Below are positions 1 to 14,773 of a DNA stretch of 64,000 bases, piece by piece; within the stretch, counting starts at the first letter, position 1, and every line of letters starts with the position of its first letter. The stretch is taken from the NCBI GenBank assembly GCA_903927615.1, contig CAIYNU010000055.1:1-64000 (forward strand). The letters run 5' to 3'. The DNA comes from an uncultured Rhodospirillales bacterium. GTDB lineage: Bacteria > Pseudomonadota > Alphaproteobacteria > Azospirillales > Azospirillaceae. The notes under the pieces are model-generated. The model saw nothing but the letters and a program-made list of their open reading frames with translations. It was not told the origin of the DNA and did no database searches. A program made the translations under genes and the position numbers.

Positions 1-2
1 GG

Positions 3-128
3 AACCTCGTCGAACGATTCTTCAATAAAATAAAAGGATTTAGGGCTATTGCCACCCGTTACGACAAGCTTGAAACCACTTTTCTGGCCGCCGTTCAACT
101 TGTCGCTACCTTCCTGTGGCTCAATTGA
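3..128 (+). CDS. IS5-family transposase, C-terminal end (cut by window edge)
   Basis: The first bases encode the last 41 residues of a transposase. The reading frame is open from base 3 and carries the pattern N-L-V-E-R-F-F-N-K-I-K, then a conserved R-Y-D-K-L segment and a hydrophobic tail ending at a TGA. The R-Y-D-K-L block followed by a short hydrophobic end is typical of the C-terminus of IS5/IS427-group DDE transposases. The rest of the gene lies outside the window, so completeness cannot be judged. The right end of the element probably falls just downstream, around the CGCCCTAG near 133-140, but no inverted repeat can be matched without the left end. It marks the edge of a mobile-element-rich stretch. 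Confidence 0.75.
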   Translation, partial: NLVERFFNKIKGFRAIATRYDKLETTFLAAVQLVATFLWLN

Positions 129-253
129 CGACACGCCCTAGTTTGTTGATAATATTTATACCGCAACAGCATCATTATTCCTTCTACGGCAGGCCATTTC
201 ATTCTGCCGGGAGTTTCACGAGCTCCAGAAGACGGCCAATTTATACATTATGT

Positions 254-808
254 TCAAAGATTTTTATTGTTCAGCCTCGAAATCGTCCACCGACTGACAT
301 TATAGCTGCGGGCTATGTCCGGCACTGGCTCGCCCGCTTCGCGCCGCTTGATTGCCTCGCGCTGCTGATGCGGTGTGAGTGTAGGCTTGCGGCCCATCTT
401 CACGCCACGGGCTTTGGCGCGTTCACGCCCCTCAGTGGTACGAGCACGGATCAGTTCGCGTTCGAACTCGGCGAGTCCGCCAAGGACGGTCAGCATCAAG
501 CGGCCGTGCGGTGTCGTTGTGTCGGCCCACGCGTCGGCAAGGGACCGGAAGCCTACGCCCATGTCGGCAAGAGCCTCGAGGGTGTGCAACAGGTCGAGCG
601 TCGAACGGGCTAATCGGTCAAGTCGCGTCACCATCACCACATCACCGGCGGTGAGTTGGTCGAGCATGCGGCGAAGCTGGGCGCGGTCAGACTTCGCGCC
701 GCTCGCCACTTCCTGAAACACCCGCTCGCACCCTGTGGCCGTCAGTGCGGCCACCTGTGCCGCCACGCTCTGACCGTCGGTCGAGACCCGCGCATAGCCA
801 TAAATCAT
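254..808 (-). CDS. Small serine recombinase (Tn3-type resolvase/invertase)
   Basis: A protein of about 184 residues with the full resolvase layout. The N-terminal catalytic domain begins Y-G-Y-A-R-V-S-T-D-G-Q with the nucleophilic serine at about residue 9. It continues with V-T-R-L-D-R-L-A-R-S (catalytic arginines) and A-E-F-E-R-E-L-I. A C-terminal helix-turn-helix ends around V-P-D-I-A-R-S-Y-N-V-S-R-W-T-I. The ATG at 808 was chosen over a GTG at 823 because the catalytic strand starts there and a res-like inverted repeat (815-839) then sits directly upstream. Enzymes of this family cut and rejoin DNA at paired sites through a phosphoserine link. The gene stands beside a transposase tail and a toxin-antitoxin pair, so it probably belongs to a transposon or integrated element. 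Confidence 0.9.
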   Translation of the reverse strand: MIYGYARVSTDGQSVAAQVAALTATGCERVFQEVASGAKSDRAQLRRMLDQLTAGDVVMVTRLDRLARSTLDLLHTLEALADMGVGFRSLADAWADTTTPHGRLMLTVLGGLAEFERELIRARTTEGRERAKARGVKMGRKPTLTPHQQREAIKRREAGEPVPDIARSYNVSRWTISRLNNKNL

Positions 809-814
809 GCGGGT

Positions 815-956
815 ATTCTGCACCGGATTTCTGCACTGGAAAAGCCTAATCAGCTCAAAGAAAGAACTGTGTTTAGTGCGGAATTCAAGACTTTTGCACG
901 AATCTCAAGTCATTGAATCCGGCAACGATTTCTGGTGCAGAAGTCGGGTGCAAAAT
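815..956. repeat. Res-like inverted repeat upstream of the resolvase
   Basis: Two 25-base segments, 815-839 and 932-956, are inverted copies of each other and match at about 20 of 25 positions. Each holds two TGCAC-type blocks about ten bases apart. They are separated by 92 bases and lie immediately upstream of the resolvase gene, where Tn3-family res sites normally sit. The reading as recombination subsites is inference from position and symmetry. Apart from this the 809-964 interval holds no gene. Confidence 0.5.
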
Positions 957-964
957 GACGGGCA

Positions 965-1495
965 TCACGTCCCGGTTGGCAAGGCGGCGCCTGCAAAGCT
1001 CCGATCTAAATCAGCCATCCGCACGAGCATGGTGCGGTGTGGGTCGAACGGCAGCTCCTGGAAGCCCCATCGGGCATAGAAGCGGCGCACGCCGTCGTCG
1101 AGCGGATGGGTGATGACCCCCATACTGCCGACGTTCCGGGAGGCATTGAGCGCTGTCCTCAATGCGAACAGGAGCAGGGACGAGGCATGTCCCTGGCCCT
1201 GATAGTCCCTATCCACGGCGAGTTGCCCGAGAAGCGTTACCGGCACCGGATCGGGGCGGTTGCGTTGTTGCGGCTTGGGAAGAAATGCTCGTTCGATTTG
1301 CGCAGAGCTGAGGGTGACATAGCCGACGATCCGACCGGAATCGACATTGGTAATGACATTCACGCGCGAGACGCCGCTCACGTGGTTGCCCCAAGCGTGA
1401 CGGCGGAACCAAGCGTTGAGGGAGTCGCGGCCACAGTCGAAATGAGCTGGATCGTCGCTCTCGACCAGGGGACGCGGCGGCGTGACCGCCGTCAT
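965..1495 (-). CDS. GNAT acetyltransferase toxin (TacT-like)
   Basis: A 176-residue GNAT-fold N-acetyltransferase. The acetyl-CoA pocket motif appears as Q-L-A-V-D-R-D-Y-Q-G-Q-G-H-A (about 90-103), followed by a G-V-I-T-H-P-L-D strand and the F-Y-A-R-W-G-F-Q-E-L motif near 139-148. Length and the C-terminal F-x-P-H-R-T-M pattern fit the TacT/AtaT toxin class, which blocks translation by acetylating the amino group of charged tRNAs. The partner is the DUF1778 protein immediately upstream: its stop codon and this ATG are one base apart, so the pair is one transcription unit. The toxin role is known for the family and inferred here; the tRNA target cannot be read from sequence. Confidence 0.88.
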   Translation of the reverse strand: MTAVTPPRPLVESDDPAHFDCGRDSLNAWFRRHAWGNHVSGVSRVNVITNVDSGRIVGYVTLSSAQIERAFLPKPQQRNRPDPVPVTLLGQLAVDRDYQGQGHASSLLLFALRTALNASRNVGSMGVITHPLDDGVRRFYARWGFQELPFDPHRTMLVRMADLDRSFAGAALPTGT

Positions 1496-1496
1496 G

Positions 1497-1772
1497 TCAG
1501 CGCTCCCAGGACGGGGCGCGTCGCGCGAGTTCGACCAATGGAGCGATGGTTTCGGCGGGGCGATCGATCCAGGCTTCGAACGCCTCCCAATCCTTAGCCG
1601 GAATGGTGACGACGAGACGGTTGAGGACTTCGACTTCGGCGGATTCCAGGGCTTTGCGGCGCACGAAGTCGCTGAGGCTGGTGTGCGCCTGTTCGGCCGC
1701 CGCTTCGAGGATGGCCCGCTCGGCGGGGTTGACCCGGACGCTCAAAACCGAGGAGGTGGAGGGGACGTTCAT
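1497..1772 (-). CDS. DUF1778 antitoxin (TacA-like, ribbon-helix-helix)
   Basis: A protein of about 91 residues from the ATG at 1772; an adjacent ATG at 1775 is equally possible. The N-terminal part (S-V-L-S-V-R-V-N-P-A-E-R-A-I-L) is the ribbon-helix-helix DNA-binding region of DUF1778 antitoxins. The C-terminal tail, with D-W-E-A-F-E-A-W-I-D-R-P, is the segment that wraps the GNAT toxin in characterised pairs. Antitoxins of this type neutralise the toxin and repress their own promoter. Gene order (antitoxin then toxin, one-base gap) is the standard arrangement. A strong promoter lies directly upstream and leaves almost no untranslated leader. Confidence 0.88.
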   Translation of the reverse strand: MNVPSTSSVLSVRVNPAERAILEAAAEQAHTSLSDFVRRKALESAEVEVLNRLVVTIPAKDWEAFEAWIDRPAETIAPLVELARRAPSWER

Positions 1773-1782
1773 CATGTGTATG

Positions 1783-1811
1783 ACAATAGCACACGGCGGT
1801 GTGGTTGTCAA
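1783..1811 (-). promoter_or_regulatory. Promoter of the toxin-antitoxin operon
   Basis: Reading leftward, a consensus -35 box TTGACA (1811-1806) is followed after 17 bases by TATTGT (1788-1783). Transcription would begin about 1776, next to the antitoxin start codons at 1775 and 1772, so the message would be leaderless or nearly so. An imperfect palindrome (GTGT...ACAC, 1776-1794) covers the -10 box and could be the autoregulatory operator. Boxes and spacing are seen directly; activity is inferred. Confidence 0.6.
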
Positions 1812-1819
1812 AGCCCATC

Positions 1820-1960
1820 GCTATCCGGTAACAGCCAAAGCCGGATACGCCCCGAGCCTTGGCGGCCTTGATGCCCGCCGTGGTGCGTTCGACGATCAAG
1901 GCGCGCTCGAAATTCAGCCAAGGCCGCCATGATGATGGAACACAAGCCGACCGCCGACAG
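1820..1960 (-). pseudogene. Frameshifted serine-resolvase remnant
   Basis: The minus strand encodes a recognisable internal resolvase segment split over two frames: S-I-I-M-A-A-L-A-E-F in one, then E-R-A-L-I-V-E-R-T-T-A-G-I-K-A-A-K-A-R-G in the next. The break is a single extra base near 1911. No start, catalytic serine or downstream HTH remains. It is unlike the intact resolvase at 254-808 in detail, so it is a fragment of a different recombinase. It lies just upstream of the toxin-antitoxin promoter and shows that this interval was assembled by earlier insertions. Confidence 0.65.
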
Positions 1961-2087
1961 AGCGCTGTTTCTCGCACCGGCACCTAACTTCTGCTGCCAA
2001 CCAGCCCCGCCGCGCTCTCGCCCAAAACGTCGGCTGACCCTATAGTTGTTGGGCAGACAGCCAGTCATTGTACGGAACGCCGGGGAA

Positions 2088-4673
2088 ATGAGCGCCACGC
2101 TCGACAACGAAATTGCGGAGCTCGAGGAGCGCCTGGCGTCCCTGGATCGGGAACGCCAGTCTATACAGGCCGCTCTGTCAGACTTGCGGGAGCGCCGCGA
2201 AGCCGAACTCGCCCTTGCGAACATTCCCCCTGAGCCGGTCGCAAACGATGCTTCGGTCACCATGGCGTCATCGCCAGCGGACAAGGTTGCCTTGTTTCGC
2301 AGCCTATTCCGTGGACGAACCGATGTGTTCCCGAAGCGGTGGGACAACCCCAAGACGGGAAAGTCGGGATACTCTCCAGCCTGCCGCAATGAATGGATCA
2401 GGGGACTCTGCGGCAAGCCGAAGGTGAAGTGCGGAGACTGTCCCGATCAGGCGTTCACTCCGGTCACGGACGAAATCATCGGCGGCCATCTCCAGGGTGT
2501 CGAACCGGGCACCCGGAATCGGTTCGGCGTACCGCCGAACTTCATTGCGGGCGTCTATCCTCTTCTTCCGGACGAGACCTGCTGGTTCCTCGCCGCCGAT
2601 TTCGACAAGCAATCCTGGATGCGGGACATCAAGGCGTTCCTCGACACCTGCCGGGACAAGGGCATTCCCGCGGCCTTGGAGCGATCCCGTTCCGGCAATG
2701 GCGGCCACGTCTGGATATTCTTCTCCGAGCCGGTTCGGGCAGACGAGGCCCGCAGGCTCGGCTCCTGGCTGATCACCGAGACCATGGAACGCTGCCCCGA
2801 CATCGGGTTCGATTCGTATGACCGCTTCTTTCCCAGCCAGGACACGATGCCGGCCGGCGGTTTCGGTAACCTAATCGCACTGCCAATGCAGAAGGTTCCG
2901 CGCGCCAAGGGCAACAGCGTTTTCCTTGATGACGCGTTCCGGCCATACGAGGACCAGTGGGCGTTCCTGTCGACGATCCGGCGGATGTCGAGAGCCGAGG
3001 TCGGGGTGCTAATCGAACGGGCCGCCTCCAACGGACGCATTCTGGGCGTCAGGTTGCCGCTCGACGAGGATGATGAGCAACCCTGGCTGACGCCGCCGTC
3101 TCGGCGGAAGCCAGAGCCGCCGGTTGCAGAGCCTCTGCCCGCCGGCGTCGACGTTGTGCTGGGAAACAAGGTCTTCATCGACCGCTCAGCGCTGCCGCCA
3201 ACCATCGTCAACCGACTCATCCGCCTCGCGGCATTCCAGAACCCCGAGTTCTATGCCGCGCAGGCGATGCGGTTGCCGACCTTCGGCACGCCGCGGATTA
3301 TCTCGTGCGCAGAACTGTTCGTGAAGCACGTCGCCTTGCCCAGGGGCTGCCTGGACGCCGCCCTTGATCTGCTCACCGGCATCGGCGTCACTCCGACTGT
3401 CCGGGATGAACGGCAGTCCGGCACGACGCTCGACACCCGGTTCGCGGGAACGCTGACGGCGGAACAGGAAGCAGCCACCCGCGCCCTGCTCGTCAAAGAC
3501 ACCGGCGTGCTGGCGGCGACGACGGCCTTCGGAAAAACAGTGGTCGCGGCGAGAATGATCGCGGAGCGGAGCACGAACACGCTCATCCTTGTCCACCGCC
3601 AGCAACTGCTCGATCAGCGGGTGGCGAGGCTGAAGGCGTTCCTCGACATCGATCCCGGTCGGATCGGCGTCATCCGCGGCGGAAAGAGGAAGCCAACCGG
3701 GGTCATCGACGTTGCCCTCATCCAGAGCCTATCGCGCAAAGGCGAAGTAGCCGACCTCGTCGCCGACTACGGCCACCTCATCGTCGATGAATGCCACCAC
3801 CTCTCGGCGGTCAGCTTCGAGGCGATCGCGGCCGCCGCGAAGGCCAGGTTCGTGCTGGGGCTGTCGGCGACGGTCACCCGGAAGGACGGCCACCACCCGA
3901 TCATATTCATGCAATGCGGGCCTGTCCGATATCGCGTCGACGCCCGGAAACAGGCGGCGGCCCGCCCATTCACCCATCGCGTCGTCCTCAGGACCACCGA
4001 CTTCTGCCCTCCCCCGACCGAGGACGGCGGGCGCATTCCCATACAGACCCTGTACGGCCTGCTCGCCCGCGACGAACGCCGCAATGACCTTATATTCGAC
4101 GACATCCTGGCCTCGCTCGAGGTCGGCCGTTCGCCCGTCGTCATCACCGAGCGCAAGGACCACCTCCAGATATTGGCCGAGCGGCTCTCCCGGTTCGCGA
4201 AAAACGTGATCGTCCTGAGCGGTGGCATGGGGGTCGGCGACAGGCGGAAGACAGCTGAAGCTCTGGCGTCTGTGCCTGACGACACAGAGCGGGTTTTGGT
4301 CGCCACCGGCCGATATCTCGGTGAAGGATTCGATGATGCCCGGCTCGATACCTTGTTCCTGACCATGCCGATCGCGTGGCATGGGACCCTCGCCCAGTAT
4401 GCGGGACGCCTCCACCGACTGCATGCGGCCAAACGCGAGGTCGTTGTGTACGACTACGTCGATAGCGCCGTCGCCACGCTTGCCCGCATGGCCGATAAAC
4501 GGCTTACGGGATACAGGGACCTCGGTTACAAAATTACCGACGGGGTCAGGCGGCTGACGAAAGCTCCCCGGCCCTCTGCTGCCGAACTTCCTCTCATCTC
4601 CGATAGGATGACGCCCTCCAAAAATGCGAACGGGGAAATGCCACCACACGACATCCTTGATATGGAGGTTTGA
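2088..4673 (+). CDS. Archaeo-eukaryotic primase - SF2 helicase fusion, candidate defence protein
   Basis: An 861-residue protein from the ATG at 2088; an in-frame TTG lies at 2046. A short coiled coil (about 1-45) precedes a likely zinc knuckle (Cys 99, 108, 115, 118). The primase domain shows a D-F-D metal motif near 171-173, S-G-N-G-G-H near 202-207 and D-R-F-F-P-S-Q-D after it. The C-terminal half is a superfamily 2 helicase: Walker A variant A-T-T-A-F-G-K-T (477-484), D-E-C-H (567-570), S-A-T (593-595) and a Q-Y-A-G-R-L-H-R motif VI. This primase-plus-helicase layout matches proteins that databases label as TOTE conflict-system primases, thought to act on invader nucleic acid. The gene stands alone between the toxin-antitoxin pair and the SIR2 gene. 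A function beyond DNA/RNA-dependent ATPase and primase-like activity is inference. Confidence 0.8.
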   Translation: MSATLDNEIAELEERLASLDRERQSIQAALSDLRERREAELALANIPPEPVANDASVTMASSPADKVALFRSLFRGRTDVFPKRWDNPKTGKSGYSPACRNEWIRGLCGKPKVKCGDCPDQAFTPVTDEIIGGHLQGVEPGTRNRFGVPPNFIAGVYPLLPDETCWFLAADFDKQSWMRDIKAFLDTCRDKGIPAALERSRSGNGGHVWIFFSEPVRADEARRLGSWLITETMERCPDIGFDSYDRFFPSQDTMPAGGFGNLIALPMQKVPRAKGNSVFLDDAFRPYEDQWAFLSTIRRMSRAEVGVLIERAASNGRILGVRLPLDEDDEQPWLTPPSRRKPEPPVAEPLPAGVDVVLGNKVFIDRSALPPTIVNRLIRLAAFQNPEFYAAQAMRLPTFGTPRIISCAELFVKHVALPRGCLDAALDLLTGIGVTPTVRDERQSGTTLDTRFAGTLTAEQEAATRALLVKDTGVLAATTAFGKTVVAARMIAERSTNTLILVHRQQLLDQRVARLKAFLDIDPGRIGVIRGGKRKPTGVIDVALIQSLSRKGEVADLVADYGHLIVDECHHLSAVSFEAIAAAAKARFVLGLSATVTRKDGHHPIIFMQCGPVRYRVDARKQAAARPFTHRVVLRTTDFCPPPTEDGGRIPIQTLYGLLARDERRNDLIFDDILASLEVGRSPVVITERKDHLQILAERLSRFAKNVIVLSGGMGVGDRRKTAEALASVPDDTERVLVATGRYLGEGFDDARLDTLFLTMPIAWHGTLAQYAGRLHRLHAAKREVVVYDYVDSAVATLARMADKRLTGYRDLGYKITDGVRRLTKAPRPSAAELPLISDRMTPSKNANGEMPPHDILDMEV

Positions 4674-5272
4674 TCTCGTCCAGCCCGAGCCATGGGTGGG
4701 CGTCGGGAGCGCCCGGACCAAGTTGGGAGCTGTTGCTTTACAGTTGGGCGTTAACCTTTACAGGCGTAATCGGATATGCTAATAATAACAATTAGTTAGC
4801 GCTGGGCAGTTGGAAACTATGCTTTACGTTACACTTGGTGGCCAAGGCCAGATGGAATGCACCCTAGGCCCAAGTAGTGTATCGAAAGGAAGCATCAGCC
4901 TGTCGCCGCTTCGCTGCGGCGGGCTGAGCGCCGTAAAAACCAAGATTTCTGCCATCTTCGGCATCGCCCCCCGTCACCCCGACCACGTCTGGTCTTGGCG
5001 CCACCGCCGGGGGCTTCACGGAAGCTTCTTGACACCCCCTTGGGATCGATCGCAGCTTGCCCCTGGGCTTGCCGCATCCCCGGCAAAATGAAAGTCGTGC
5101 ACCTGGAAAGCGTCAGCAATCCGCTCAGTCACGAGAATAGACGGAACGACTACGCAACCTCCGGGCAGCCATCTAAGGAAACTCACCATGACCTCAGAAG
5201 AGTGTAGTTGCTGAATCCAGGGCACCCAAATGCAACTCAAAAGGATGGGTTTGCCTCAATCATATAACAAGC
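4674..5272. other. 599-base gene-free interval of mixed composition
   Basis: No reading frame here looks like a real protein. The first part (4740-4800) is visibly AT-rich compared with the window. The middle holds one copy of a degenerate repeat (4850-4975) also found at 8636-8775. Minus-strand frames across 4895-5240 are arginine-rich and resemble translated non-coding DNA. The interval separates the convergent ends of the primase-helicase and SIR2 genes. No clear terminator with a T-tract was found. Confidence 0.6.
4850..4975 (+). repeat. Degenerate direct repeat, copy 1
   Basis: This segment aligns in the same orientation with 8636-8775. Shared landmarks in order are TGGA-AATGCA, TAGTGT, CATCAGCCTGTCGC, a G/C-rich block with GGTGGGC or GCGGGC, an AAACCA stretch and GATTTCTGCCAT (GATTTCCGCCAT in the other copy). 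Between landmarks the copies differ by substitutions and short indels. It lies beyond the 3' end of the SIR2 gene and its partner lies upstream of that gene. It could be the remains of an insertion-sequence end or of a duplicated insertion boundary; the element family is not recognised. Confidence 0.55.
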
Positions 5273-8200
5273 TCAATATACCAGTTTGGTCACCACTGGT
5301 CCTCGCAAAGAAAACCCCACCTGAAATCGAACGACACTATCCAGCAAAACCTCACTCTCTGCTTCCGGAGAACAATCTGGTATATGAAAAAAAGCGCTCA
5401 GTTTCATCGCGTCGCATTGGATAAACCCATACCTATCCCGAAGGAACGACACGGTCCCGACGAATTCGCTCGGTGTCCCATCACTCTCACACAGTACACC
5501 ACTTACTGTAGTCTTTTCCTTGAACGGAACATTCGATTCGGAGAGCCTCCTGTAAATGGGGCGGGCCTCTTCGAAACGACCCATGATACACAACTGACGC
5601 GCATACCAGAACTGGGCCTGAAGGTTCCTATCCTCCGGTGAAAACGAACGTTGCAGGTGATACAGAATGAGCGGTGCTTCGATCCGATCGCCGTTATAGG
5701 CGCTTTCCATGATCGTCATAGCCAAATCGTAGTGTATGTCCTGGGCGGCAGGATTGAAGCCGAGGCATTGGTGGAGAACCTGCCGGGCTTCCGCATACGC
5801 TCCCTTGGATCGCTTCATGCGGGCGAGACGCTTCGTGATCAGCGTGCTCCGAGGGTTTGCCACGAAAGCTTTCTCTAATGCCGTTTCGGCTCGAATTGAT
5901 TGAGACAGGATTTTCGACAGTTCCGACTCTTCGGCCAGGAGAACCGCTTCATTCGGGAATGCCTGGAGGCCCCTCTTCAGGATTACCTCGGCCTTCGCGA
6001 TGCAGTCTCCGAGCTTCACCGTCGCAGCATCCGTATGGCCGTCCTCAATCACTGCGATCGCATCCTTCACTCCGTCGATCGCAGCCTTCAACAGGGTGTG
6101 ATGCGGATATGGACTGGTGTTACCCCTCCCGAGCAACGCGGACGCCGTCTCCATTGCGCTCTTTCTCCACGCCTGCCGTGAGAGAGGGTCTGAAACGATA
6201 CGAGACCGCTTAAGATTGAGTTCGGCGAGTGAATGTATTATGGCGAGATTGTGTGGTTCCAGACCCCTCGCTTTCTCGAGAAGTACTTCCGCAACGTTTA
6301 GTGCGCCCATGTTCACCGCGATATTCTTTTCGAAGATTCCCCTTTGCTGATACAGCACCGCACGTTCACCGAGGGCCGACTGGGCAGCGTCATAGACCTG
6401 CCGTATCTTGGAATGATCGGAAAGAACACTTTCCAGGTTTTCCGCCCTCACCAGTTTTCCGATTACCTCCTGGTCATAAGAAAAGCTGGGATTAAGTTTC
6501 GTAAGGATGCGAATGATGTTATCAAAGCGCTCCTCCTGACTTTTCACTATGGTCTCATAAAGCGTGTGCGCGATAAAGGAATGCCTCGCCTCGTATACGT
6601 AGTCGCCTGAACGCTTGTCCTCGCGAAGCACCACGATCGCCTCGAGAGGCTTAAACAGTTTATTTTGAAAGTTTTCAAATGAAATGTCGTGGATACGCGA
6701 AATCAAGCCTGCTCTCACCGGAGGACCGAAACGATGAAGTGAGCAAATGTCGAGATACAGAAGCTTGGCTTCGGCGGGATAAATCGACTGGTACTCCATT
6801 GCGATGATGGCCATGAGCGGCACACCGTGCGTCGCCTCCAGCAGTGCGACGAACAACTGCCTTCCATGCACATAATTGAGTTCATGGATTCTCCTCTCCT
6901 CGGACAATCCTTCTAGATATCCGAGGCTGCCGTGCTTTTCGAGCTTTGCTATGAGCGCCTTGACATTAGTCTCAGACAAATAACGCATTTCTTGAATATC
7001 CGAAACGTACGGTTCCAGGTCCTCGCACGACACATTCCAAGTATTCGGGGTCTCGGTTCCGATGATTTTCATACTGACCTTCAATCTACGAGCCAGCATC
7101 AGGATATCTAGAACCCTGTCCCTGTGTTCCGCGACATTGTCGACGAACAGAAACACAGGGAGATTGGTCAGACGTAATATCTCTTCGAAGCGATCTGTTT
7201 GGATGAGGTGCTGCCTGGCCACGAAGAAACACAGTCGGTCGTGCCTGGTAGCAGCCTCGTAACAGACCCGACGGAGAACAACACTCTTGCCAGATCCAGC
7301 GTGGCCTTTGACGACGACGAGTGATTGTCCAGCCCTGCCGAAGCTCGGCACCACATGCTCCGCAAGAAGAACGTCCACGATAGGTTGGCGTACGTCGAGT
7401 TCAGCCGCTATGGGGTACCAGCCTAGATCGAACCCGCGATAAAATTTTCCAGGGTCGCCGACAGGCGGATCGACTTCAGGCCCGACATGTTCGATGAATG
7501 AGTTCAGATAGTGCCTGAGATCCTCACTCTCCTGAGACCTCGGCGCGTTGATGAAACGCGAGAATGATGTCTTGTGCGACACGTCCGCCGAAACGACAGA
7601 AAGCACACGCTCGTTCGCGCTCAGCCTACGGTCTAGGCTTTCGAGCAAATTCTGGAAGGTCGTGTCGACCGCCACTACACGTCGGTCACGCCAGTATGCA
7701 ATCTCCCTCTCCCGAATACCCTTGCTGATGATGTAATGGCGCGGACGGTTATCCCCCTCCTTTATTATTTCATCAAACAGGCATCGCAGGTTCCTATCCT
7801 GAAATGAATAACCACAGAAAATCATTGTTTTCGTTTTTGACCATTCGAGAAACGTATTGAACTGCCCATTCCGTCCGTTCCTGAAAGAAATTAGCTGTTC
7901 AGTACTCGCGATCAATGGCGGATTCACTTCCTGGTAGCGCGTGATGCAACCGTGAAGCTTTACGTACAGCAGACTCCGATCACCCAGTTGGTCGGTCGCT
8001 CCGTCACCGTCCTTCGTGTTCGGCACCAGTTTTTGGAGCCGCCCGGGAGCACGCTGGTAGGCACGCTCCAACAGTAGATCATAATTGGTGCCCGCGATTC
8101 CCGCCCAAGCGAAAGTCGGAATTAGCCGGTGGAAATCGGTCGGGTGAAACGGATTGAGGATTTCGAATATTTTCCGCTGGACTGACCGTACGTCGCTGGC

Positions 8201-8413
8201 CGAGCATGCCAGATCGTATACGCCCCGGATGTCAAGGTCGTCGTAGCCGCTTCCGAGAAACTCCCCTGCCAGAAGTTTTGCCAATTCAGGATCGTCTGGC
8301 ATCGGCTGCAGCTTATCGTCGACCGCGCCACGGGAAGCTCCCGCGCCCAGGAACAGGACAGCTCGTCCTTCCTGCACAGCCTTAGTTAGTTCGCTTGGAA
8401 TATCGCACGTCAT
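5273..8413 (-). CDS. SIR2-STAND NTPase-TPR protein with C-terminal cold-shock domain, candidate anti-phage effector
   Basis: A single 1046-residue protein. Residues 1-265 form a SIR2-like NAD-binding domain: F-L-G-A-G-A-S (21-27), G-T-N-Y-D (108-112), K-L-H-G with the probable catalytic His154, and G-Y-S-F-Q-D-R-N-L-R (201-210). A P-loop NTPase follows, with Walker A G-H-A-G-S-G-K-S (370-377) and Walker B V-F-L-F-V-D (420-425). The region from about 680 to 960 is helical and TPR-like. The last 61 residues form a cold-shock-type OB fold with Y-G-F-I (RNP1-like) and F-F-H-I (RNP2-like). SIR2 domains in Avs5, Thoeris and DSR-type defence destroy NAD after phage sensing, and STAND NTPases act as the sensor switch. 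The nucleic-acid-binding OB fold at the tail is unusual. No partner gene is adjacent, so it appears self-contained. Defence is inferred from architecture and neighbourhood. Confidence 0.85.
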   Translation of the reverse strand: MTCDIPSELTKAVQEGRAVLFLGAGASRGAVDDKLQPMPDDPELAKLLAGEFLGSGYDDLDIRGVYDLACSASDVRSVQRKIFEILNPFHPTDFHRLIPTFAWAGIAGTNYDLLLERAYQRAPGRLQKLVPNTKDGDGATDQLGDRSLLYVKLHGCITRYQEVNPPLIASTEQLISFRNGRNGQFNTFLEWSKTKTMIFCGYSFQDRNLRCLFDEIIKEGDNRPRHYIISKGIREREIAYWRDRRVVAVDTTFQNLLESLDRRLSANERVLSVVSADVSHKTSFSRFINAPRSQESEDLRHYLNSFIEHVGPEVDPPVGDPGKFYRGFDLGWYPIAAELDVRQPIVDVLLAEHVVPSFGRAGQSLVVVKGHAGSGKSVVLRRVCYEAATRHDRLCFFVARQHLIQTDRFEEILRLTNLPVFLFVDNVAEHRDRVLDILMLARRLKVSMKIIGTETPNTWNVSCEDLEPYVSDIQEMRYLSETNVKALIAKLEKHGSLGYLEGLSEERRIHELNYVHGRQLFVALLEATHGVPLMAIIAMEYQSIYPAEAKLLYLDICSLHRFGPPVRAGLISRIHDISFENFQNKLFKPLEAIVVLREDKRSGDYVYEARHSFIAHTLYETIVKSQEERFDNIIRILTKLNPSFSYDQEVIGKLVRAENLESVLSDHSKIRQVYDAAQSALGERAVLYQQRGIFEKNIAVNMGALNVAEVLLEKARGLEPHNLAIIHSLAELNLKRSRIVSDPLSRQAWRKSAMETASALLGRGNTSPYPHHTLLKAAIDGVKDAIAVIEDGHTDAATVKLGDCIAKAEVILKRGLQAFPNEAVLLAEESELSKILSQSIRAETALEKAFVANPRSTLITKRLARMKRSKGAYAEARQVLHQCLGFNPAAQDIHYDLAMTIMESAYNGDRIEAPLILYHLQRSFSPEDRNLQAQFWYARQLCIMGRFEEARPIYRRLSESNVPFKEKTTVSGVLCESDGTPSEFVGTVSFLRDRYGFIQCDAMKLSAFFHIPDCSPEAESEVLLDSVVRFQVGFSLRGPVVTKLVY

Positions 8414-8444
8414 CGGATGCCATCAGCTTAAATGCACGCACTAG

Positions 8445-8472
8445 ATTACAATTCGTGATCGGTTTCAGGCAA
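8445..8472 (-). promoter_or_regulatory. Candidate promoter of the SIR2-STAND gene
   Basis: Reading leftward, TTGCCT (8472-8467) and TGTAAT (8450-8445) are separated by 16 bases. They end about 30 bases before the ATG at 8413. The boxes are reasonable but not consensus, and no strong ribosome binding site is visible before the ATG. This is a pattern match only. Confidence 0.35.
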
Positions 8473-8580
8473 GCATCCTAACGCATCCCGACGCAAATGC
8501 TTCGGAACGCCGAGACTGCGATAGACCGATGCCTCGCCAATGGACACGGTATGATACTGACGCCTCCGGCGATCCACGTA
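8446..8580 (-). pseudogene. Possible resolvase C-terminal HTH remnant
   Basis: The minus strand carries a short open stretch with I-G-E-A-S-V-Y-R-S-L-G ending at a TAA at 8448-8446. The I-G-x-A-S-V-Y-R pattern is how the recognition helix of many serine resolvases reads. Nothing upstream in this frame looks like a catalytic domain. It may be a recombinase relic, but the match is short and could be chance. Confidence 0.3.
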
Positions 8581-8635
8581 AATTCAAAGGGTTGCAAGGT
8601 AGTCAGAGGCATTGCGTGGGGCCTTGGCCAGCTAT

Positions 8636-8775
8636 TTAGTGGAGAATGCAGCATAATTTGCCTCTATGCGCCATAGTGTGTACCGAATCGCGGCATCAGC
8701 CTGTCGCACTTCCGGGTGCGGTGGGCGGATGCCCGAGAAACCACCGATTTCCGCCATTTTTATGTAGCCGACACC
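8636..8775 (+). repeat. Degenerate direct repeat, copy 2
   Basis: Partner of 4850-4975, in the same orientation. It starts with TGGAGAATGCA, then TAGTGTGTACCG, GCATCAGCCTGTCGC, GTGCGGTGGGCGGATG, GAAACCACCGATTTCCGCCATTTT. It lies about 220 bases upstream of the SIR2-STAND gene, so the two copies bracket that gene. The interval 8581-8967 holds nothing else recognisable: frames on both strands are arginine- or proline-rich shadows. Confidence 0.55.
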
Positions 8776-8967
8776 GGCTCGGTTTTTCCGGGTCGCGGGC
8801 GGCTTCTGGAACCGGCCGGAAGCAGCGCTATCCAACGAAGTTGTCATGCGCGCTACGCGCCCTGTATCGCGTTTAAGGGCCATCCGCCCGGCCGCCCGGG
8901 ACCCGGTAAGATCAGTTTCGCCCGCGCTCTCGTCAGAACATGTTCTGCGCGGTGTGGCGCTCCGGTG

Positions 8968-9255
8968 GGATTCGTCTCGGCTTCCTACGCGAAGTGGCAG
9001 GGATCGGGTCACCTTGGTGACTTCATCAAAAGCATGCAGAAGGATTTTCAGGCTGCGACCGCAACCGACCTGCATGTCCGGAACGGCAAGCTCGGGACCT
9101 GGACGACAGCGCCGTCCGCCCGAGCCGCACACCCGCGTGAGGAGCATCTCATGCCCCTGATGGTGATTGCCGGGGCGGCGGGACCGGATGTCGGCCGACG
9201 CGCCTACTATGACCGCATCGGCGGCAAGCGGTTCTCCGGCTACGAGTTCGGCTGA
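8968..9255 (+). pseudogene. C-terminal fragment of a LigB/DODA-type extradiol dioxygenase
   Basis: The plus strand from 8968 encodes the last 95 residues of a class III ring-opening dioxygenase. It reads W-x-x-A-P-S-A-R-A-A-H-P-R-E-E-H-L-M-P-L-M-V with the conserved H-P-R-E-E-H metal-site block, followed by a G-A-A-G-P-D turn and a terminal stop. The N-terminal two thirds, including the first metal ligands, are missing; upstream sequence is the repeat region. The fragment lies 35 bases upstream of an exported stub and 340 bases from an FMN reductase, a common neighbour of this family, so an operon was truncated at its 5' side by the event that created the island edge. Confidence 0.7.
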
Positions 9256-9290
9256 GCCGGTGACGGACGGATATTCAGGAGACCATATCG

Positions 9291-9434
9291 ATGAACAAAG
9301 ATGCATCTTTCGGTACAGGGCTCATGGGTATGGTCCGGAGGATCGTTCCGGCGCTGCTGCTGATAGCCATGCCGAGCGTCTCGTTTGCGGCACGCCTTTC
9401 ACAGATATTTTCCCATACCACCAATCCTTGGTGA
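9291..9434 (+). pseudogene. Truncated exported protein (signal peptide only)
   Basis: An ATG at 9291 opens a 47-residue frame. After M-V-R-R-I-V-P it has a hydrophobic core A-L-L-L-I-A-M-P-S-V and an A-A cleavage-like site, then only about 14 more residues before the stop. This is a well-formed Sec signal peptide without a mature domain. The downstream sequence to 9590 holds no continuation in any frame that could be recognised. It is probably the 5' end of a deleted or decayed secreted-protein gene between the dioxygenase and the FMN reductase. Confidence 0.45.
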
Positions 9435-9595
9435 TGCGTAGCGGGGCAGACCGAATGGCTACCCATGGTGCACGAACCGCCGCCGCACCGACCCGGTGAC
9501 ATGTACCGCTGTTGAGTTTCCCGTCGCCATGGAGCACCATACACAACTTGTTAAGGAGGTCCGTCTGACCTCATTCATTCCCATGGGGGAACACC

Positions 9596-10147
9596 ATGAG
9601 CAAGTATCAGATCGCGGTCATCGTGGGCAGCCTACGGAAGGACAGCTTCAACCGTAAATTGGCTGACGCCATCGTGAAGCTGGCGCCGCCGGAATTTTCA
9701 TTCAAGCCGTCTCAAATCGGCGACCTTCCGCTCTATAACCAGGATGACGACGCGGAGCCGGCAGCATCCGTCACTCGGCTGAAGGCGGAAATCTCGGCCG
9801 CCCAGGGATTGCTGTTCGTGACGCCCGAGTATAACCGCTCGTTCCCCGGCGTGCTCAAGAACGCCATCGACCATGCCTCGCGGCCCTACGGCAAAGGTGT
9901 TTGGTCGGGCAAGCCCGCAGGTGTCCTGGGCGTTTCGCTCGGTGCCATCGGCACTTCCATGGCACAGCAGCACCTGCGCAACGTTCTTGCCTACCTGGAC
10001 GTGCCGACACTTGGGCAACCCGAAGCTTTTATCCAGATGAAGGACGGACTGTTCGATGAAGCCGGAAACATCGGCCCGGGCAGCAAATCTTTTCTACAGG
10101 GTTGGATGGACCGGTACGCCGCATGGGTGAAGCGGCACGCGGCGTGA
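9596..10147 (+). CDS. NADPH-dependent FMN reductase (flavodoxin-like fold)
   Basis: A 183-residue cytoplasmic flavoprotein. The N-terminal G-S-L-R-K-D-S-F-N-R (about 12-21) is the FMN phosphate-binding loop, and T-P-E-Y-N-R-S-F-P-G-V-L-K-N-A-I-D (about 78-94) is the signature of the NADPH-dependent FMN reductase/azoreductase family. G-V-S-L-G-A-I-G-T forms a further FMN contact. The ATG at 9596 follows a strong GGGGGA ribosome binding site. Such enzymes reduce FMN, quinones or azo compounds at the expense of NAD(P)H. It lies behind remnants of a dioxygenase operon, which suggests an original role with aromatic substrates. The gene itself is intact. Confidence 0.9.
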   Translation: MSKYQIAVIVGSLRKDSFNRKLADAIVKLAPPEFSFKPSQIGDLPLYNQDDDAEPAASVTRLKAEISAAQGLLFVTPEYNRSFPGVLKNAIDHASRPYGKGVWSGKPAGVLGVSLGAIGTSMAQQHLRNVLAYLDVPTLGQPEAFIQMKDGLFDEAGNIGPGSKSFLQGWMDRYAAWVKRHAA

Positions 10148-10347
10148 CGTCAACGGTATCGCGACTGGTGCTCTCCCTATCGTTGGCGGCCCAATTGGCC
10201 GCCGCGATTACTGACAATGGTCTGATTTCTCACCCCGTCATTGGGCATCTGTTTCGAGCCGGCCGATGCCTATGCAGTCGATCCTTGCCGATCAGGTTGT
10301 GAGCGACGCGGCGTTCAGCCTTGCGGATGCCAAAGGCGGAAGCCGTC

Positions 10348-11349
10348 ATGAAAATGCTCGAGGGGATGTTCTCGGCCCGGTATTTCGTGTTCCTGCTTGC
10401 CGCTGGCGGTGGGGTGATGCTGGCGGTGTTCGCCGTCATCGACGGCGGTTGGACTTCGGCACTGACGGTGGCCCTGGCGCTTACGGCGCTGGGCGTCCAC
10501 GACATTGTTCAAACCCGTCACAGTCTTCTGCGCAACGACCCCATCGTCGGCCATGTCCGCTTCATTCTTGAGGAACTGCGAGGGGTGGTTCGGCAGTATT
10601 TTCTGGAAGGGGACGACGAAAATGTTCCTTTCAGCCGCAACAATCGGTCCGTGGTCTATCAGCGGGCCAAGGAGGAACTCGACAAACGGCCGTTCGGAAC
10701 GAAGCTCGACGTCTACGCCCCGGCCTTCGAATGGCTGAATCACTCCATCGCCCCGAAGCTGCCAGCCCCTCAACCGGACAGGGTTATGGTTGGGGGGCCT
10801 GACTGCTCATGTCCCTATTCCGTCTCACGGCTCAATATCTTGGCGATGAATTTCGGTGCGCTCGGCGCCAACGCCATCCGGGCGCTCAATCGCGGTGCCC
10901 GCATGGGAGGATTTGCCCAAGACACCGGTGAGGGCGGTTGCACTGTCCGCCATCTTGAGGACGGCGGGGACCTCATCTGGGAAATTGGCAGCGGCTGTTT
11001 CGGTTGCCGCACCCCGGACGGACGCTTTTCCCCGGAACGCTTTGCCGAGCGCGCCGCCCTGGAACAGATACGCATGGTGGAGATCAAGCTGTCCCAGGGC
11101 GCCAAGCCCGGACACGGTGGCGTGCTGCCCGGGGCGAAAGTCACGCCCGAAATCGCGGCGGCGCGCGGGGGACCGGTAGATGTGGACTGCGTTTCGCCGC
11201 CAAGTCACTCGGCATTCAGGACGCCGCTGGACCTGATGCGGTTCATCGGCGAACTCCGCACGCTCTCCGAAGGCAAGCCGGTCGGTTTCAAGCTCTGCAT
11301 CGGACTGGAATGGGAGTTCATCGCCCTCGGCGCGGATTATCCTGTATGA
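10348..11349 (+). pseudogene. FMN-binding glutamate-synthase-like protein, 3'-truncated
   Basis: About 333 residues. Two hydrophobic helices near the N-terminus (F-V-F-L-L-A-A-G-G-G and A-L-T-V-A-L-A-L-T-A) precede an FMN-binding glutamate-synthase-like barrel. Visible motifs are M-N-F-G-A-L-G-A-N-A, D-T-G-E-G-G, G-S-G-C-F-G-C-R and K-P-G-H-G-G-V-L-P-G-A-K-V. Intact relatives run to roughly 500-540 residues with the flavin and iron-sulfur half after the K-P-V-G-F-K-L block. Here the frame breaks at L-C-I-G-L-E-W-E-F and stops a few residues later, 36 bases before the photolyase ATG. ATGs at 10327, 10348 and 10354 are possible starts; 10348 has the best upstream GGCGGAAG. The gene is very probably inactive, with its 3' part replaced by the photolyase region. 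Confidence 0.7.
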
Positions 11350-11385
11350 TGGAGTGCCGGAAGTTCCGGAAACGAGTGCAATAAA

Positions 11386-12819
11386 ATGAGTGAACCCGGG
11401 CAACCGCCCATCCTGCTGTGGTTTCGGAGCGACCTGAGGCTGGCCGACAATCCGGCCCTAACGGCGGCGGCCATGTCGGGACGCCCGGTCATTCCGGTCT
11501 TCATCCATGATGACCCGTCCAACCTCGGCGGGGCATCCCGATGGTGGCTTCACCAAAGTCTCGTGGCGCTGTCACGGGATATCGGCGCGCTCGGCGCGCC
11601 GTTGGTCGTGCGTCGGGGAGACGCGCCGACGGTTCTGGCCGCGCTCGGTAAGGAAACCGGAGCCGATACGCTCCATTTCAACCGCGTACCGCGCCCCCGC
11701 GAAGCCCGCCAGGAAGAACTGATTGCCGGACTGCTCGGAAGCCGCGGCATTGCCGTTCACGGCCACGACGCGGCCCTTCTCTTCGAACCGCGCACGGTCA
11801 GGACGCAGGCCGGCGGCAATTTCAAGGTCTTCACTGCTTTCTGGAAGACCTGCATGGCCATGCCGGAGCCGCCACGACCGCTGCCGGCCCCGAAGACGCT
11901 GAGCGTGTGGCCGCACTCCCTTCCGAGCCTTGGGCTCGACCAGTTGGGGTTACTGCCAACGGGTGTCGATTGGGCCGACGGGCTTCGAGCCGTCTGGACA
12001 CCGGGCGAACGTGGCGCCCAAGGTCGCCTGACCGATTTCCTCGAGGATGGCGTCATCGAGAGCTACGACAGCGACAGGGACCGTCCGGATCGCGAGGGAA
12101 CGTCACGCCTTGCACCCCATCTTGCGTTCGGCGAAATCAGCGTACGGGCGGTATGGCATGCCGTCAGAACGATGTCCGCGCCGGGAAACGGTGTGACGCG
12201 GTTCCTGACCGAATTGGGCTGGCGCGAGTTCTGCCACGACCTGCTGCTCCATCATCCCGACATGGCGGAACGTCCGCTGCGCCCGGAATTCGAAACCTTT
12301 CCATGGAGGAGCGATCCTGCGGCCTTCCGGGCGTGGTGTAAGGGTCGCACCGGCTATCCCATCGTCGATGCCGGCATGCGTCAACTCTGGCAGACGGGCT
12401 GGATGCACAACCGGGTGCGGATGATCACGGCATCGTTTCTGGTCAAGCATCTGCTCTGTCCCTGGCAGGATGGCGAGCGCTGGTTCCGGGATACCCTCGT
12501 CGATGCCGACGTCGCCAACAACGCGGCGGGCTGGCAGTGGGTCGCAGGATGCGGTGCCGATGCCGCGCCGTTCTTCAGGATTTTCAATCCGGTCTTGCAA
12601 GGCGAGCGCTTTGACCCCGATGGGGCCTATGTGAAACGGTACGTGCCCGAGTTGGCCGACTTACCACCGCAGTGGATACACAAGCCATGGACCGCCCCAC
12701 CGTCGGCGCTTGCGGCGGCCCGGCTTCAAGTGGGGGCCGACTATCCGTTGCCGATTGTCGACCATGCTCGGGCACGGGCACTCGCCCTGTCTGCGTTCAA
12801 GGCGATATCAAGGAAGTAG
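11386..12819 (+). CDS. phrB: Deoxyribodipyrimidine photolyase (class I CPD photolyase/cryptochrome family)
   Basis: A 477-residue flavoprotein that repairs UV-induced cyclobutane pyrimidine dimers with light. The N-terminal antenna domain opens L-L-W-F-R-S-D-L-R-L-A-D-N-P-A-L. The C-terminal FAD-binding domain has F-L-T-E-L-G-W-R-E-F, G-R-T-G-Y-P-I-V-D-A-G-M-R-Q-L and the W-M-H-N-R-V-R-M-I block, then V-D-A-D-V-A-N-N-A-A-G-W-Q-W. All these are diagnostic of class I CPD photolyases. Length is typical. It is transcribed away from the truncated glutamate-synthase gene and ends near a polypyrimidine repeat before a convergent kinase gene. A cryptochrome-like role cannot be excluded, but the DNA-repair family is the better fit. 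Confidence 0.95.
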   Translation: MSEPGQPPILLWFRSDLRLADNPALTAAAMSGRPVIPVFIHDDPSNLGGASRWWLHQSLVALSRDIGALGAPLVVRRGDAPTVLAALGKETGADTLHFNRVPRPREARQEELIAGLLGSRGIAVHGHDAALLFEPRTVRTQAGGNFKVFTAFWKTCMAMPEPPRPLPAPKTLSVWPHSLPSLGLDQLGLLPTGVDWADGLRAVWTPGERGAQGRLTDFLEDGVIESYDSDRDRPDREGTSRLAPHLAFGEISVRAVWHAVRTMSAPGNGVTRFLTELGWREFCHDLLLHHPDMAERPLRPEFETFPWRSDPAAFRAWCKGRTGYPIVDAGMRQLWQTGWMHNRVRMITASFLVKHLLCPWQDGERWFRDTLVDADVANNAAGWQWVAGCGADAAPFFRIFNPVLQGERFDPDGAYVKRYVPELADLPPQWIHKPWTAPPSALAAARLQVGADYPLPIVDHARARALALSAFKAISRK

Positions 12820-12891
12820 AGATCGATTGCGGCTGGTCCACAGAGGTTAACCATGCGAGGAGGCGGGTTCGAGGACGGCCACGGCGGAACA

Positions 12892-12922
12892 TTCCTCCTC
12901 CTTCCTCCTTCCTCCTTCCTCT
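12892..12922 (+). repeat. TTCCTCC heptamer tract
   Basis: A polypyrimidine run made of about four imperfect TTCCTCC units lies in the intergenic space between the convergent photolyase and sensor-kinase genes. It is low-complexity DNA with no obvious coding or terminator role; the interval 12820-12970 holds nothing else. Confidence 0.6.
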
Positions 12923-12970
12923 TTCTTGCTCTGCTTCGAACTTTGAGGTGGTTACGAAGCCGCAGATGGG

Positions 12971-14773
12971 TCATGGCGGAGGTTCCGGTGGGAAGTGGAT
13001 CGTGAAGGTCGTACCTTTGCCAAGCTCGCTCTCAATGCCGAGGCGGCCGCCATGCAACTCGACGAGTCCCTGCACAAGGGGCAACCCCAATCCCGTGCCT
13101 CCGTGAGCACGGCTGAATCGGTTGTCGATCTGCTCGAACGGCTTCACGACACGGCCGATTTCACTCGCTGGTATGCCCATGCCCGTATCTGATACGGTCA
13201 GAACCATACCGCCATCGGGTGCGCTCCGTGCCGTTACCGTGACGCTTCCTCCGAGAGGCGTAAACTTTATCGCGTTCGAAATCAGGTTGAAAAGGATGTG
13301 GCGGAGACCGCGCTCGTCGGCCAGGACCGTGAGGTCCGGACTGTCGACCTCCGCGGACAGGGTCACTTCGGCGGTTTCGGCCTTCAGGCGGAAGACGCGG
13401 AGGCTCTCCGCGAGCATGGCGGCGATCGGAACGCGGCTTCGCTCGATCTCCATCTTGCCCGCCTCGATCTTGGCGACGTCGAGGATGTCATTCACCAGAG
13501 TCAGCAGGTTCATGCCGCCGAGGTGGATGTCGTCCGCCGCCTCCACATACCTCTCCTCCAGCGGACCGAACGCGCGATCGCGAATCAATTCGGAGAAGCC
13601 GACGATGGAATTGAGCGGCGTGCGGATTTCATGGCCCATGTTCGCGAGGAAGTAGGATTTCGCCTCGTTCGCCCTTTCGGCCTGTCGGCGGGCTTCCGCG
13701 ACAGTCCGGTCGTACGCCCGCTGGTGCCTTTGGAAGAAGAACAGTCCGACCGTCGACACCGACAGCAGCAGGAGGTAGAGCCAGGCCTGCTTCAGGGCGT
13801 CCTCCCGCCATGCCGCATGGATGGCGCCGTAGTCGCGGCTGATCGCGGCCACCAGTGGTCTGTCCATGTGAACCTTGGGAGGCTTGATGGTGACCTGCGC
13901 GAGCATCCGGTATTGTCCGGTGGCGTATACGGTGCCCGTCACCACGGTTTCCGTCAGACCGCTCTCGATGTGGCGGATGAAGAGGGTTCCGGGCAGCGCG
14001 AGATTCTTGCCGCGTTGGTCTGCCCGCTCGGGTACCGTCAGGAACTGCAATCCATCACCGTGGACGATGGCACTCCACATGTCCGGCGCGTAGAGCGTGG
14101 AACCCAGCAGGGTCGTGAAGTATTCGGGGTCGAGCGTGGCTGTCACCACACCTGCGAATTCTCCTCGCGCGCCTCGAATCATCATCGACATGTTCATGGA
14201 GTAGACCCCGAGAACGGTCTCGAAAGGCGGCGAGATGATGACCGCATCGGGATCGTCGGAGTCATGCGCGCTCCTGAAGTAGGCGCGCTCGGCGAAGGTC
14301 CTGCCGACGAGTTCGGCCCGGTTGGATGTCGTCACCGTGCCGGAACCGTCCAGGACGCTGATCGTGCGCACGCCCGGCATGGCGTCGGCCAGGGTCTTCA
14401 GACGCTGCGGAGCGGGGTCGAGGGCGTCGGCCCGCGCCCGGTAGGTCGGATCACCCCTGACGCCGAGCAGGGCTTGATGCGTCGCCTCCATCTCCAGCGC
14501 GAGGTTCTTCGCGACCATCCGGACATGGTGCAGGAGCAACTTGCCTTCGTTGTCGTCGAGACGGACATACTCGACCTGAAGCTGGTAGCCGATAACGCCC
14601 GCGAGGGCCGCCATTGACAGCGCATGCATCAGCCAGTGCAGAAGGTAGGACCGCTTGGGCTGAAGGTCCCCGCCACCTATGGACCTGTGCCGACGTTCGG
14701 CATTCGGCAGGCCGACGAAGGAAACACGCGCCAAGCGCAGGAACGCCTTCCCCCAACGACCGACCGTCTTCAT
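12971..14773 (-). CDS. Membrane sensor histidine kinase (dCache-type sensor)
   Basis: A 600-residue kinase from the ATG at 14773, whose ATGA overlaps the stop of the upstream EAL gene. A transmembrane helix near 50-70 is followed by a periplasmic dCache-like region of about 230 residues (D-G-S-G-T-V-T-T-S-N, P-F-E-T-V-L-G-V-Y-S). A second helix (W-L-Y-L-L-L-L-S-V) leads into a short coiled coil. The HisKA box reads F-L-A-N-M-G-H-E-I-R-T-P-L-N, with Gly where Ser is usual before the phosphorylated His. The ATPase domain has an N box, D-T-G-M-G-I and G-G-T-G-L-G-L. No receiver domain is attached and no response regulator is adjacent; the co-transcribed c-di-GMP phosphodiesterase suggests a shared pathway. 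The ligand is unknown. Confidence 0.92.
   Translation of the reverse strand: MKTVGRWGKAFLRLARVSFVGLPNAERRHRSIGGGDLQPKRSYLLHWLMHALSMAALAGVIGYQLQVEYVRLDDNEGKLLLHHVRMVAKNLALEMEATHQALLGVRGDPTYRARADALDPAPQRLKTLADAMPGVRTISVLDGSGTVTTSNRAELVGRTFAERAYFRSAHDSDDPDAVIISPPFETVLGVYSMNMSMMIRGARGEFAGVVTATLDPEYFTTLLGSTLYAPDMWSAIVHGDGLQFLTVPERADQRGKNLALPGTLFIRHIESGLTETVVTGTVYATGQYRMLAQVTIKPPKVHMDRPLVAAISRDYGAIHAAWREDALKQAWLYLLLLSVSTVGLFFFQRHQRAYDRTVAEARRQAERANEAKSYFLANMGHEIRTPLNSIVGFSELIRDRAFGPLEERYVEAADDIHLGGMNLLTLVNDILDVAKIEAGKMEIERSRVPIAAMLAESLRVFRLKAETAEVTLSAEVDSPDLTVLADERGLRHILFNLISNAIKFTPLGGSVTVTARSAPDGGMVLTVSDTGMGIPASEIGRVVKPFEQIDNRFSRAHGGTGLGLPLVQGLVELHGGRLGIESELGKGTTFTIHFPPEPPP

Follow-up and report, generated by a model that had tools for sequence, protein, structure and literature searches.

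The gene analysed here belongs with proteins that carry the NCBI product name 'TOTE conflict system archaeo-eukaryotic primase domain-containing protein' and that are gathered in the AEP-TOTE family of Pfam (PF22548). Our literature search retrieved neither a text defining TOTE systems nor a published test of this AEP-TOTE primase-helicase family. Besides, the two halves of such a chain have described counterparts of their own, namely the CRISPR-associated Prim-Pol (CAPP) for the primase and the XPB, RAD25 and UvsW helicases for the motor. As to mobile DNA, the described recombinase-in-trio (RIT) elements comprise three recombinases in about 3.5 kb, with inverted repeats of 28-34 bp, according to the accessible parts of two articles (PMC3414803, PMC10214605). 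The former of them called RIT mobility not yet demonstrated in 2012, and, within these same parts, the word 'helicase' does not occur in PMC3414803 and neither 'helicase' nor 'primase' in PMC10214605.

The window, i.e. the whole stretch of 64,000 nucleotides that was analysed, comes from an uncultured Rhodospirillales bacterium. An original prediction had presented its primase-helicase gene as a likely defence or element-maintenance gene of the TOTE type, standing beside a toxin-antitoxin pair and a SIR2-STAND gene.

Gene and domain organization

On the plus strand, an open frame of 875 amino acids runs from a TTG at 2046 to the stop codon at 4673, and the ATG at 2088, also the start in the original prediction, is the likely start of a predicted protein of 861 amino acids (Table 1). 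Residues are numbered below from this ATG, the extent of the AEP-TOTE domain (residues 79-319) being counted on the 875-aa frame. This domain matches PF22548 with 323.4 bits against a gathering cut-off of 27, and matches to ResIII (E 3.5e-20) and DEAD (E 4.4e-9) are found on the same chain, the order being an N-terminal helix, a Cys4 site, the AEP and the SF2 helicase. The product is an AEP-TOTE family member in which an AEP is fused to an SF2 helicase, and the gene is an ordinary further copy of an already named family.

The motifs lie at residues 99, 108, 115 and 118 (cysteines), 171-173 (DFD), 202-207 (SGNGGH), 478-484 (TTAFGKT) and 567-571 (DECHH). In a conservation alignment of 75 rows, the window protein among them, D171, D173, H207, G482, K483, T484, D567 and E568 are conserved in 100% and the four cysteines in 99-100%, while N204 and G206 of SGNGGH reach 84-85%. 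In the same line, the cysteines, DFD, S-G-x-G-x-H, GKT, DECHH and GRLHR each occur in 97-100% of the 75 rows, and the window protein has them all. The AEP catalytic motif (DxD, SxH and a conserved acid) was recognized in 37 rows, in which D171, D173 and H207 are invariant, as are D245 and D252, the candidates for the conserved acid. Since the catalytic motifs are all kept, the window protein is, judging by its sequence, predicted to be an intact enzyme.

These data largely bear out the domain reading of the original prediction. The DFD and SGNGGH motifs do share one chain with an SF2 helicase, and the profile search for an AEP that it had proposed gave an overwhelming match. The announced zinc knuckle is present as the Cys4 site, but it lies within the N-terminal part of the AEP-TOTE match and no separate knuckle stands ahead of it. 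Finally, the Walker A motif had been called atypical; TTAFGKT is the norm of the family (A480 in 93% and F481 in 99% of the 75 rows) and is therefore not atypical here.

Table 1. Features of the window discussed in the text
Feature	Position	Strand	Evidence
Serine resolvase	254..823	-	PF00239 E 1.1e-44
GNAT acetyltransferase, TacT-like by position	965..1495	-	PF00583 E 5.6e-9
TacA-like antitoxin	1497..1811	-	PF08681 E 1.4e-13
Possible resolvase remnant left of the gene	1846..1914	-	23 residues, 65%, E 0.008 only
AEP-TOTE primase + SF2 helicase, 861 aa (predicted)	2088..4673	+	Frame, Pfam, alignment, AF2 model
AEP-TOTE domain with Cys4 site, DFD, SGNGGH	2280..3002	+	PF22548 E 1.1e-96, conservation
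XPB/UvsW-like SF2 helicase core	3453..4421	+	Start of ResIII match to end of Helicase_C match
SIR2_2-nSTAND_NTPase5-TPR protein, convergent	5273..8413	-	Pfam, GC
Contig-end region with no equivalent at the corresponding place of G048:C120	1..10320	.	One genome compared

Surroundings of the gene in the window

Both the toxin-antitoxin pair and the SIR2-STAND gene of the original prediction were recovered on the two sides of the primase-helicase gene (Table 1). About 600 bp without a clear gene separate the latter from the SIR2-STAND gene, and the GC content is 63.5% in the primase-helicase gene, 52.9% in the SIR2-STAND gene and 63-64% from 10.3 kb onward. In terms of GC content, the SIR2-STAND gene could be a separately acquired defence gene. 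Further along, a repeat of 340 bp (9052-9391) is 98% identical to another contig of the same genome (G000:C92:1201-1540).

Synteny with the one syntenic contig of the same genus (G048:C120) begins at position 10329 of the window, the genes upstream being different. When positions 1-14000 were compared with a first set of the collected loci at E 1e-4, the sole match beyond the gene was a resolvase (L026). In addition, the window's own genome (G000) contains a second, decayed copy of the gene, made of two fragments of 73-74% identity (L108:8457-9190, on G000:C18), which indicates that its loss is tolerated. A DUF6398 gene comes after this decayed copy, and a homologue of it (49%) follows the relative L005 too.

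Distribution and neighbours of the relatives

The window gene is sporadic in distribution. At E 1e-3, a match is present in 21 of the 82 genomes of its own family, and the match extends beyond the helicase part in only two of the 82, namely the window's own genome, with the full gene and the decayed copy, and G057, with an N-terminal fragment. In a sample of the class, 9 of 385 genomes match at E 1e-60, the own genome counted. Among genome contigs, at least 561 of at least 585 pattern matches encode a relative, and 80 of these loci were kept for reading. Copies were counted at E 1e-40 in 45 genomes holding 46 chosen loci: 43 genomes have a single copy, one genome of Magnetospirillum three and a further genome two. 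As regards plasmids, 193 records match, 91 of them with 80% covered in one place, and 96 of the 193 are typed as conjugative. Viral contigs gave 21 loci, 15 of which match most of the query.

The relatives that were read adjoin transfer, toxin-antitoxin, restriction and transposition genes. The pool of neighbours consisted of the 263 nearest proteins, up to two per side, of the 80 loci, split into 140 and 123; genes were called by the longest open frame, some members of the pool being spurious, and proteins above 900 aa or below 110 aa as well as some partial frames were omitted. For the Pfam tallies, which cover the 25 commonest families per pool, phage-type integrases account for 15 of 123 neighbours, many of them from RIT trios, TniQ and TniB for 3 of 123 each, AbiEii for 6 of 140 and 2 of 123, YhcG for 3 of 140 and HipA for 2 of 140. 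PADLOC, run on 140 of the 263, likewise reported six AbiEii, among others.

Several of these neighbours were checked individually: TniQ lies directly upstream of the primase-helicase gene in L052 and L057, a BsuBI/PstI-type restriction enzyme and a methylase adjoin it in L065, HipA and Fic in L034, and a YhcG nuclease in L010, with L006 and L018 in the same cluster. By annotation, TniQ is directly upstream in the plasmids L105 and L137 too and, convergently, adjoins the gene in L138, and the two genes overlap in L057 and L105. By eye, L015 and L020 have HsdR-like genes and L017 has an AbiEii-like one. A gene of an SNF2-type cluster follows in L029, L031, L038 and L064, that of L031 being checked by profile. 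Among the 80 loci, neither a single widely recurring partner nor a fixed effector was found, and this great diversity of neighbourhoods makes a fixed set of TOTE partners doubtful.

Two further observations can be mentioned. In one beta- and one gammaproteobacterial locus, an overlapping gene of 181-183 aa, with no Pfam match at E 0.01, precedes the relative (L144:5310-5861, L145:5313-5858). In L013 (12780-22191), the genes after the primase-helicase resemble by eye a type I-C CRISPR-Cas set.

Relatives carried by RIT elements

The strongest new result comes from relatives of a sister clade, which are located within transposons that have inverted ends of about 90-180 bp, either together with a RIT set or alone between these ends. 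In 9 of 78 loci, long inverted repeats stand on either side of the gene, compared with 1 of 206 control genes, the nine loci being related to each other and two of them (L074 and L081) nearly identical. Seven brackets enclose three tyrosine recombinases (RIT; L059, L063, L074, L078, L081, L082 and L083), and those of L042 and L054, of 2.7 kb, have no Rit match inside. In L042 (9792-12543), the inverted repeats around the gene measure 89 nt (90%), and a perfect palindrome with arms of 16 nt adjoins the right end. Of 17 plasmid loci, picked from match lists and not at random, eight are bracketed with the RIT trio inside, either over 6.3 kb (L104, L106, L136 and L142) or over 7.3-7.5 kb (L134, L135, L140 and L141), inverted DUF736-bearing copies of 630-690 nt flanking the trio in the latter; L103, L105, L107, L137, L138, L139, L143, L144 and L145 make up the nine unbracketed ones. 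Between the ends of the RIT elements, no other gene was seen, or only DUF736 copies.

Over 14 elements, the identities of the primase-helicase correlate with those of RitC (r 0.78, with 0 of 1000 permutations as high). Part of this value reflects a split into two classes; since pairs within a class agree too (L074/L082: 0.81 and 0.83), the pairing looks old within a class, as far as sequences can tell.

In the 75-row tree (quick search, SH-aLRT only, midpoint-rooted, without plasmid loci), one group of 26 rows (SH-aLRT 100) holds all seven RIT loci, both single-gene loci and 12 of 12 left-end loci. This last label is our own, given from an end motif, and includes L035, which is without the exact upstream motif.

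Nine RIT elements (L059, L063, L074, L078, L082, L083, L104, L106 and L142; e.g. L063:9725-16028, L074:9745-16037 and L059:9739-16022) split strawberry-notch genes, always at one position; both orientations occur, with five elements in the first and four in the second, and in L104 one half of the gene is 1.5 kb off, behind an IS110. L136 lies outside a strawberry-notch gene, and for L081 no flank is available. When the two flanks are joined, the frame is restored in L063, L074, L082 and L083. The flank probes of L063 are identical to the plasmid pSA1 of Novosphingobium resinovorum (224/224 and 228/228 bases) up to a shared 6-bp TATGTC, and over 3.2 kb the flanks are 90.0% and 96.8% identical, pSA1 being an exact empty site for the L063 element. 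The joined strawberry-notch site is found to at least 80% in one place in 480 of 534 matching plasmid records.

The rhizobial elements break DUF736 at codon 49/50. Both halves are present in L134, L135 and L141, and also around a lone primase-helicase gene in L035 and, as partial halves, in L054; in L035, a 71-nt inverted pair lies at other positions and was not counted as element ends. Of the 93 loci examined, eleven more have one DUF736 half directly at the left end (L036, L038, L066, L067, L069, L072, L073, L107, L138, L139 and L140); the search gave no left half in L042, L046, L047, L055 and L068, all with the end motif. Joined DUF736 is present to at least 80% in one place in 916 of 962 matching plasmid records. 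The larger elements that split DUF736 (e.g. L135:6636-14440) bear a DUF736 gene of their own, about 50% identical to the broken one. For the single-gene element L042, a search for the empty site in 146 genomes of its genus returned nothing beyond the two flanks of L042 itself and matches of at most 30 bases.

As these elements have definite ends and a constant target position, and one of them an exact empty site, the question of defence or transposition becomes testable. Were the primase-helicase required for movement, a replication step would be added to RIT elements; were it pure cargo, they would ferry primase-helicase genes between conjugative plasmids. The novelty of RIT elements bearing a primase-helicase is unproven, the main paper on RIT phylogeny being reportedly that of Ricker in 2013.

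Possible roles

With about even confidence, we regard the window gene as a stand-alone AEP-TOTE primase-helicase, i.e. an accessory gene of mobile DNA serving element upkeep or inter-element conflict, and this is favoured over a dedicated anti-phage system formed with the SIR2-STAND neighbour. The original prediction of a conflict or element-maintenance gene is partly supported, through the AEP-helicase fusion, the named TOTE family and the accessory mobile setting, and not through the SIR2-STAND link. In our scheme, the XPB-like motor would bind DNA and open it or translocate along it, and the Prim-Pol domain would prime the exposed strand or fill short gaps in it. The benefit could be restart or second-strand synthesis for element DNA that is single-stranded, nicked or attacked, be it by restriction, transposition or conjugation. 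The same chemistry might also serve as a weapon against a rival element. A helper for element DNA that has been damaged, nicked or left single-stranded is in keeping with the association of the gene with units of restriction, transposition, conjugation and RIT type, and primases of conjugative elements, said in the accessible part of one article to prime transferred ssDNA (PMC5512222), offer an analogy. The window gene itself contributes its fold family, its intact motifs, its sporadic presence and a contig-end location unlike that of the one syntenic relative. As it is without long inverted ends, RIT genes and a same-strand partner, the window copy may be an orphan.

A dedicated anti-phage defence, in which the helicase would find foreign DNA and the primase would make aberrant primers or copies that block this DNA or trigger a neighbour, is possible but clearly less probable. 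The restriction, Abi, Fic and Zorya genes adjacent to relatives fit defence equally well as the preferred reading. In E. coli, 868 of 5426 genomes match, 681 covering more than 80%, 892 of 898 places are chromosomal, and all ten rows listed bear the TOTE AEP product name; in the one chromosomal region read, an integrase, YfjI and Gp2 come before the primase-helicase, which is followed by a hypothetical gene, by DprA and by an incomplete Zorya set. However, no fixed effector partner was seen, and one clade rides in RIT elements with no other genes between the ends or only DUF736 copies. Besides, the top PADLOC match of the window protein is the Cas-associated PrimPol model (E 3.7e-85), the adaptation PrimPol also being among the best, whereas mREase_IV, PbeA, RT_UG10, Cas3 and HamB all match at E 3e-10 or worse.

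More tentatively, the AEP-helicase could be a working part of homing-like transposons and no defence gene, priming and unwinding a single-stranded or circular intermediate that the RIT recombinases make, the window gene being a related free-standing form. The forms of the element would then be RIT plus primase-helicase, one that also bears DUF736 genes, and the gene alone between ends. All of them would insert at a single codon of genes conserved on conjugative DNA, namely strawberry notch and DUF736.

It is unlikely that a plasmid, satellite or phage once used the gene as its replication primase-helicase and left it in the chromosome. AEP primase families surveyed in the accessible part of one article are nearly all tied to bacterial mobile elements (PMC5862659), and the E. 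coli copies have directly upstream a gene annotated 'inovirus-type Gp2' and, ahead of it, YfjI, both of which could be replication genes and fit a replication role. Nevertheless, none of 1000 matching phage records covers 80% of the query, and no initiator is annotated directly beside the gene in 20 other plasmid regions, whose gene tables are incomplete; in L138, the partition gene repA is about 6 kb away. The original prediction had opposed its reading to homologues lying consistently in replication modules, and the neighbourhood survey bears this out incompletely: Gp2 and YfjI could point to such a module, and whole relatives were not found in phages.

That the gene is former RIT-type cargo whose element ends have decayed in the window is quite improbable, although the sister-clade copies are RIT cargo or stand alone between similar ends. 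The window protein groups with L005, L006 and L008 (SH-aLRT 95) in another part of the 75-row tree, the 11 closest matches (L004-L014, several cut by contig ends) show no long inverted ends, and RitC matches only two distant recombinases (31%) in the window's own genome. An element of the RIT or inverted-end type at the window was itself rejected: no long inverted ends surround the gene, a search for RIT genes with the Rit proteins of L074 gave no match in the window at E 1e-5, and a scan of the 64 kb for the end motif gave no copy. Together with the separate tree position, this makes the window gene a relative, and not an example, of the element-borne form.

Finally, a two-gene system with the SIR2-STAND protein, suggested by an adjacency seen in the window only, is very improbable and was rejected, because the genes are convergent and about 600 bp apart, differ in GC content, and show no recurrent pairing, no protein clustering with this SIR2-STAND among the 80 loci, many of them short; the SIR2-STAND gene is probably independent of the primase-helicase.

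Comparison with known systems

The AF2 model, built from 31 sequences, has a mean pLDDT of 78 and a pTM of 0.66. Normalised by target, it aligns with the CAPP Prim-Pol at TM 0.77-0.82 and with XPB at TM up to 0.64, and the family profile, run against solved structures, retrieves XPBII (E 4.6e-31) and the CAPP Prim-Pol (E 5.7e-22), as well as RAD25 and UvsW. CAPP (PDB 7nqd, 7nqe and 7nqf) thus has the AEP fold in common with the window model, but in the window protein the AEP is joined to an SF2 helicase, and the score for NCBIfam NF040561 (PrimPol_Msp, CRISPR-associated PrimPol) is 80.2 for a cut-off of 200. In the same way, the helicase core is similar to those of XPB, RAD25 and UvsW, but is joined to a primase, and NF045503 (DNA repair helicase XPB) scores 53.5 for a cut-off of 610.

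Like the published RIT elements, the sister-clade copies have three adjacent tyrosine recombinases between inverted ends, whereas they differ from them by their length of 6.2-7.5 kb, their inverted ends of 89-177 nt and the primase-helicase that they carry. With AEP-TOTE members, the whole domain order is shared by the window protein, which is 44-49% identical to three aligned beta- and gammaproteobacterial proteins, and there is no essential difference between this family and the window gene, a stand-alone copy of it.
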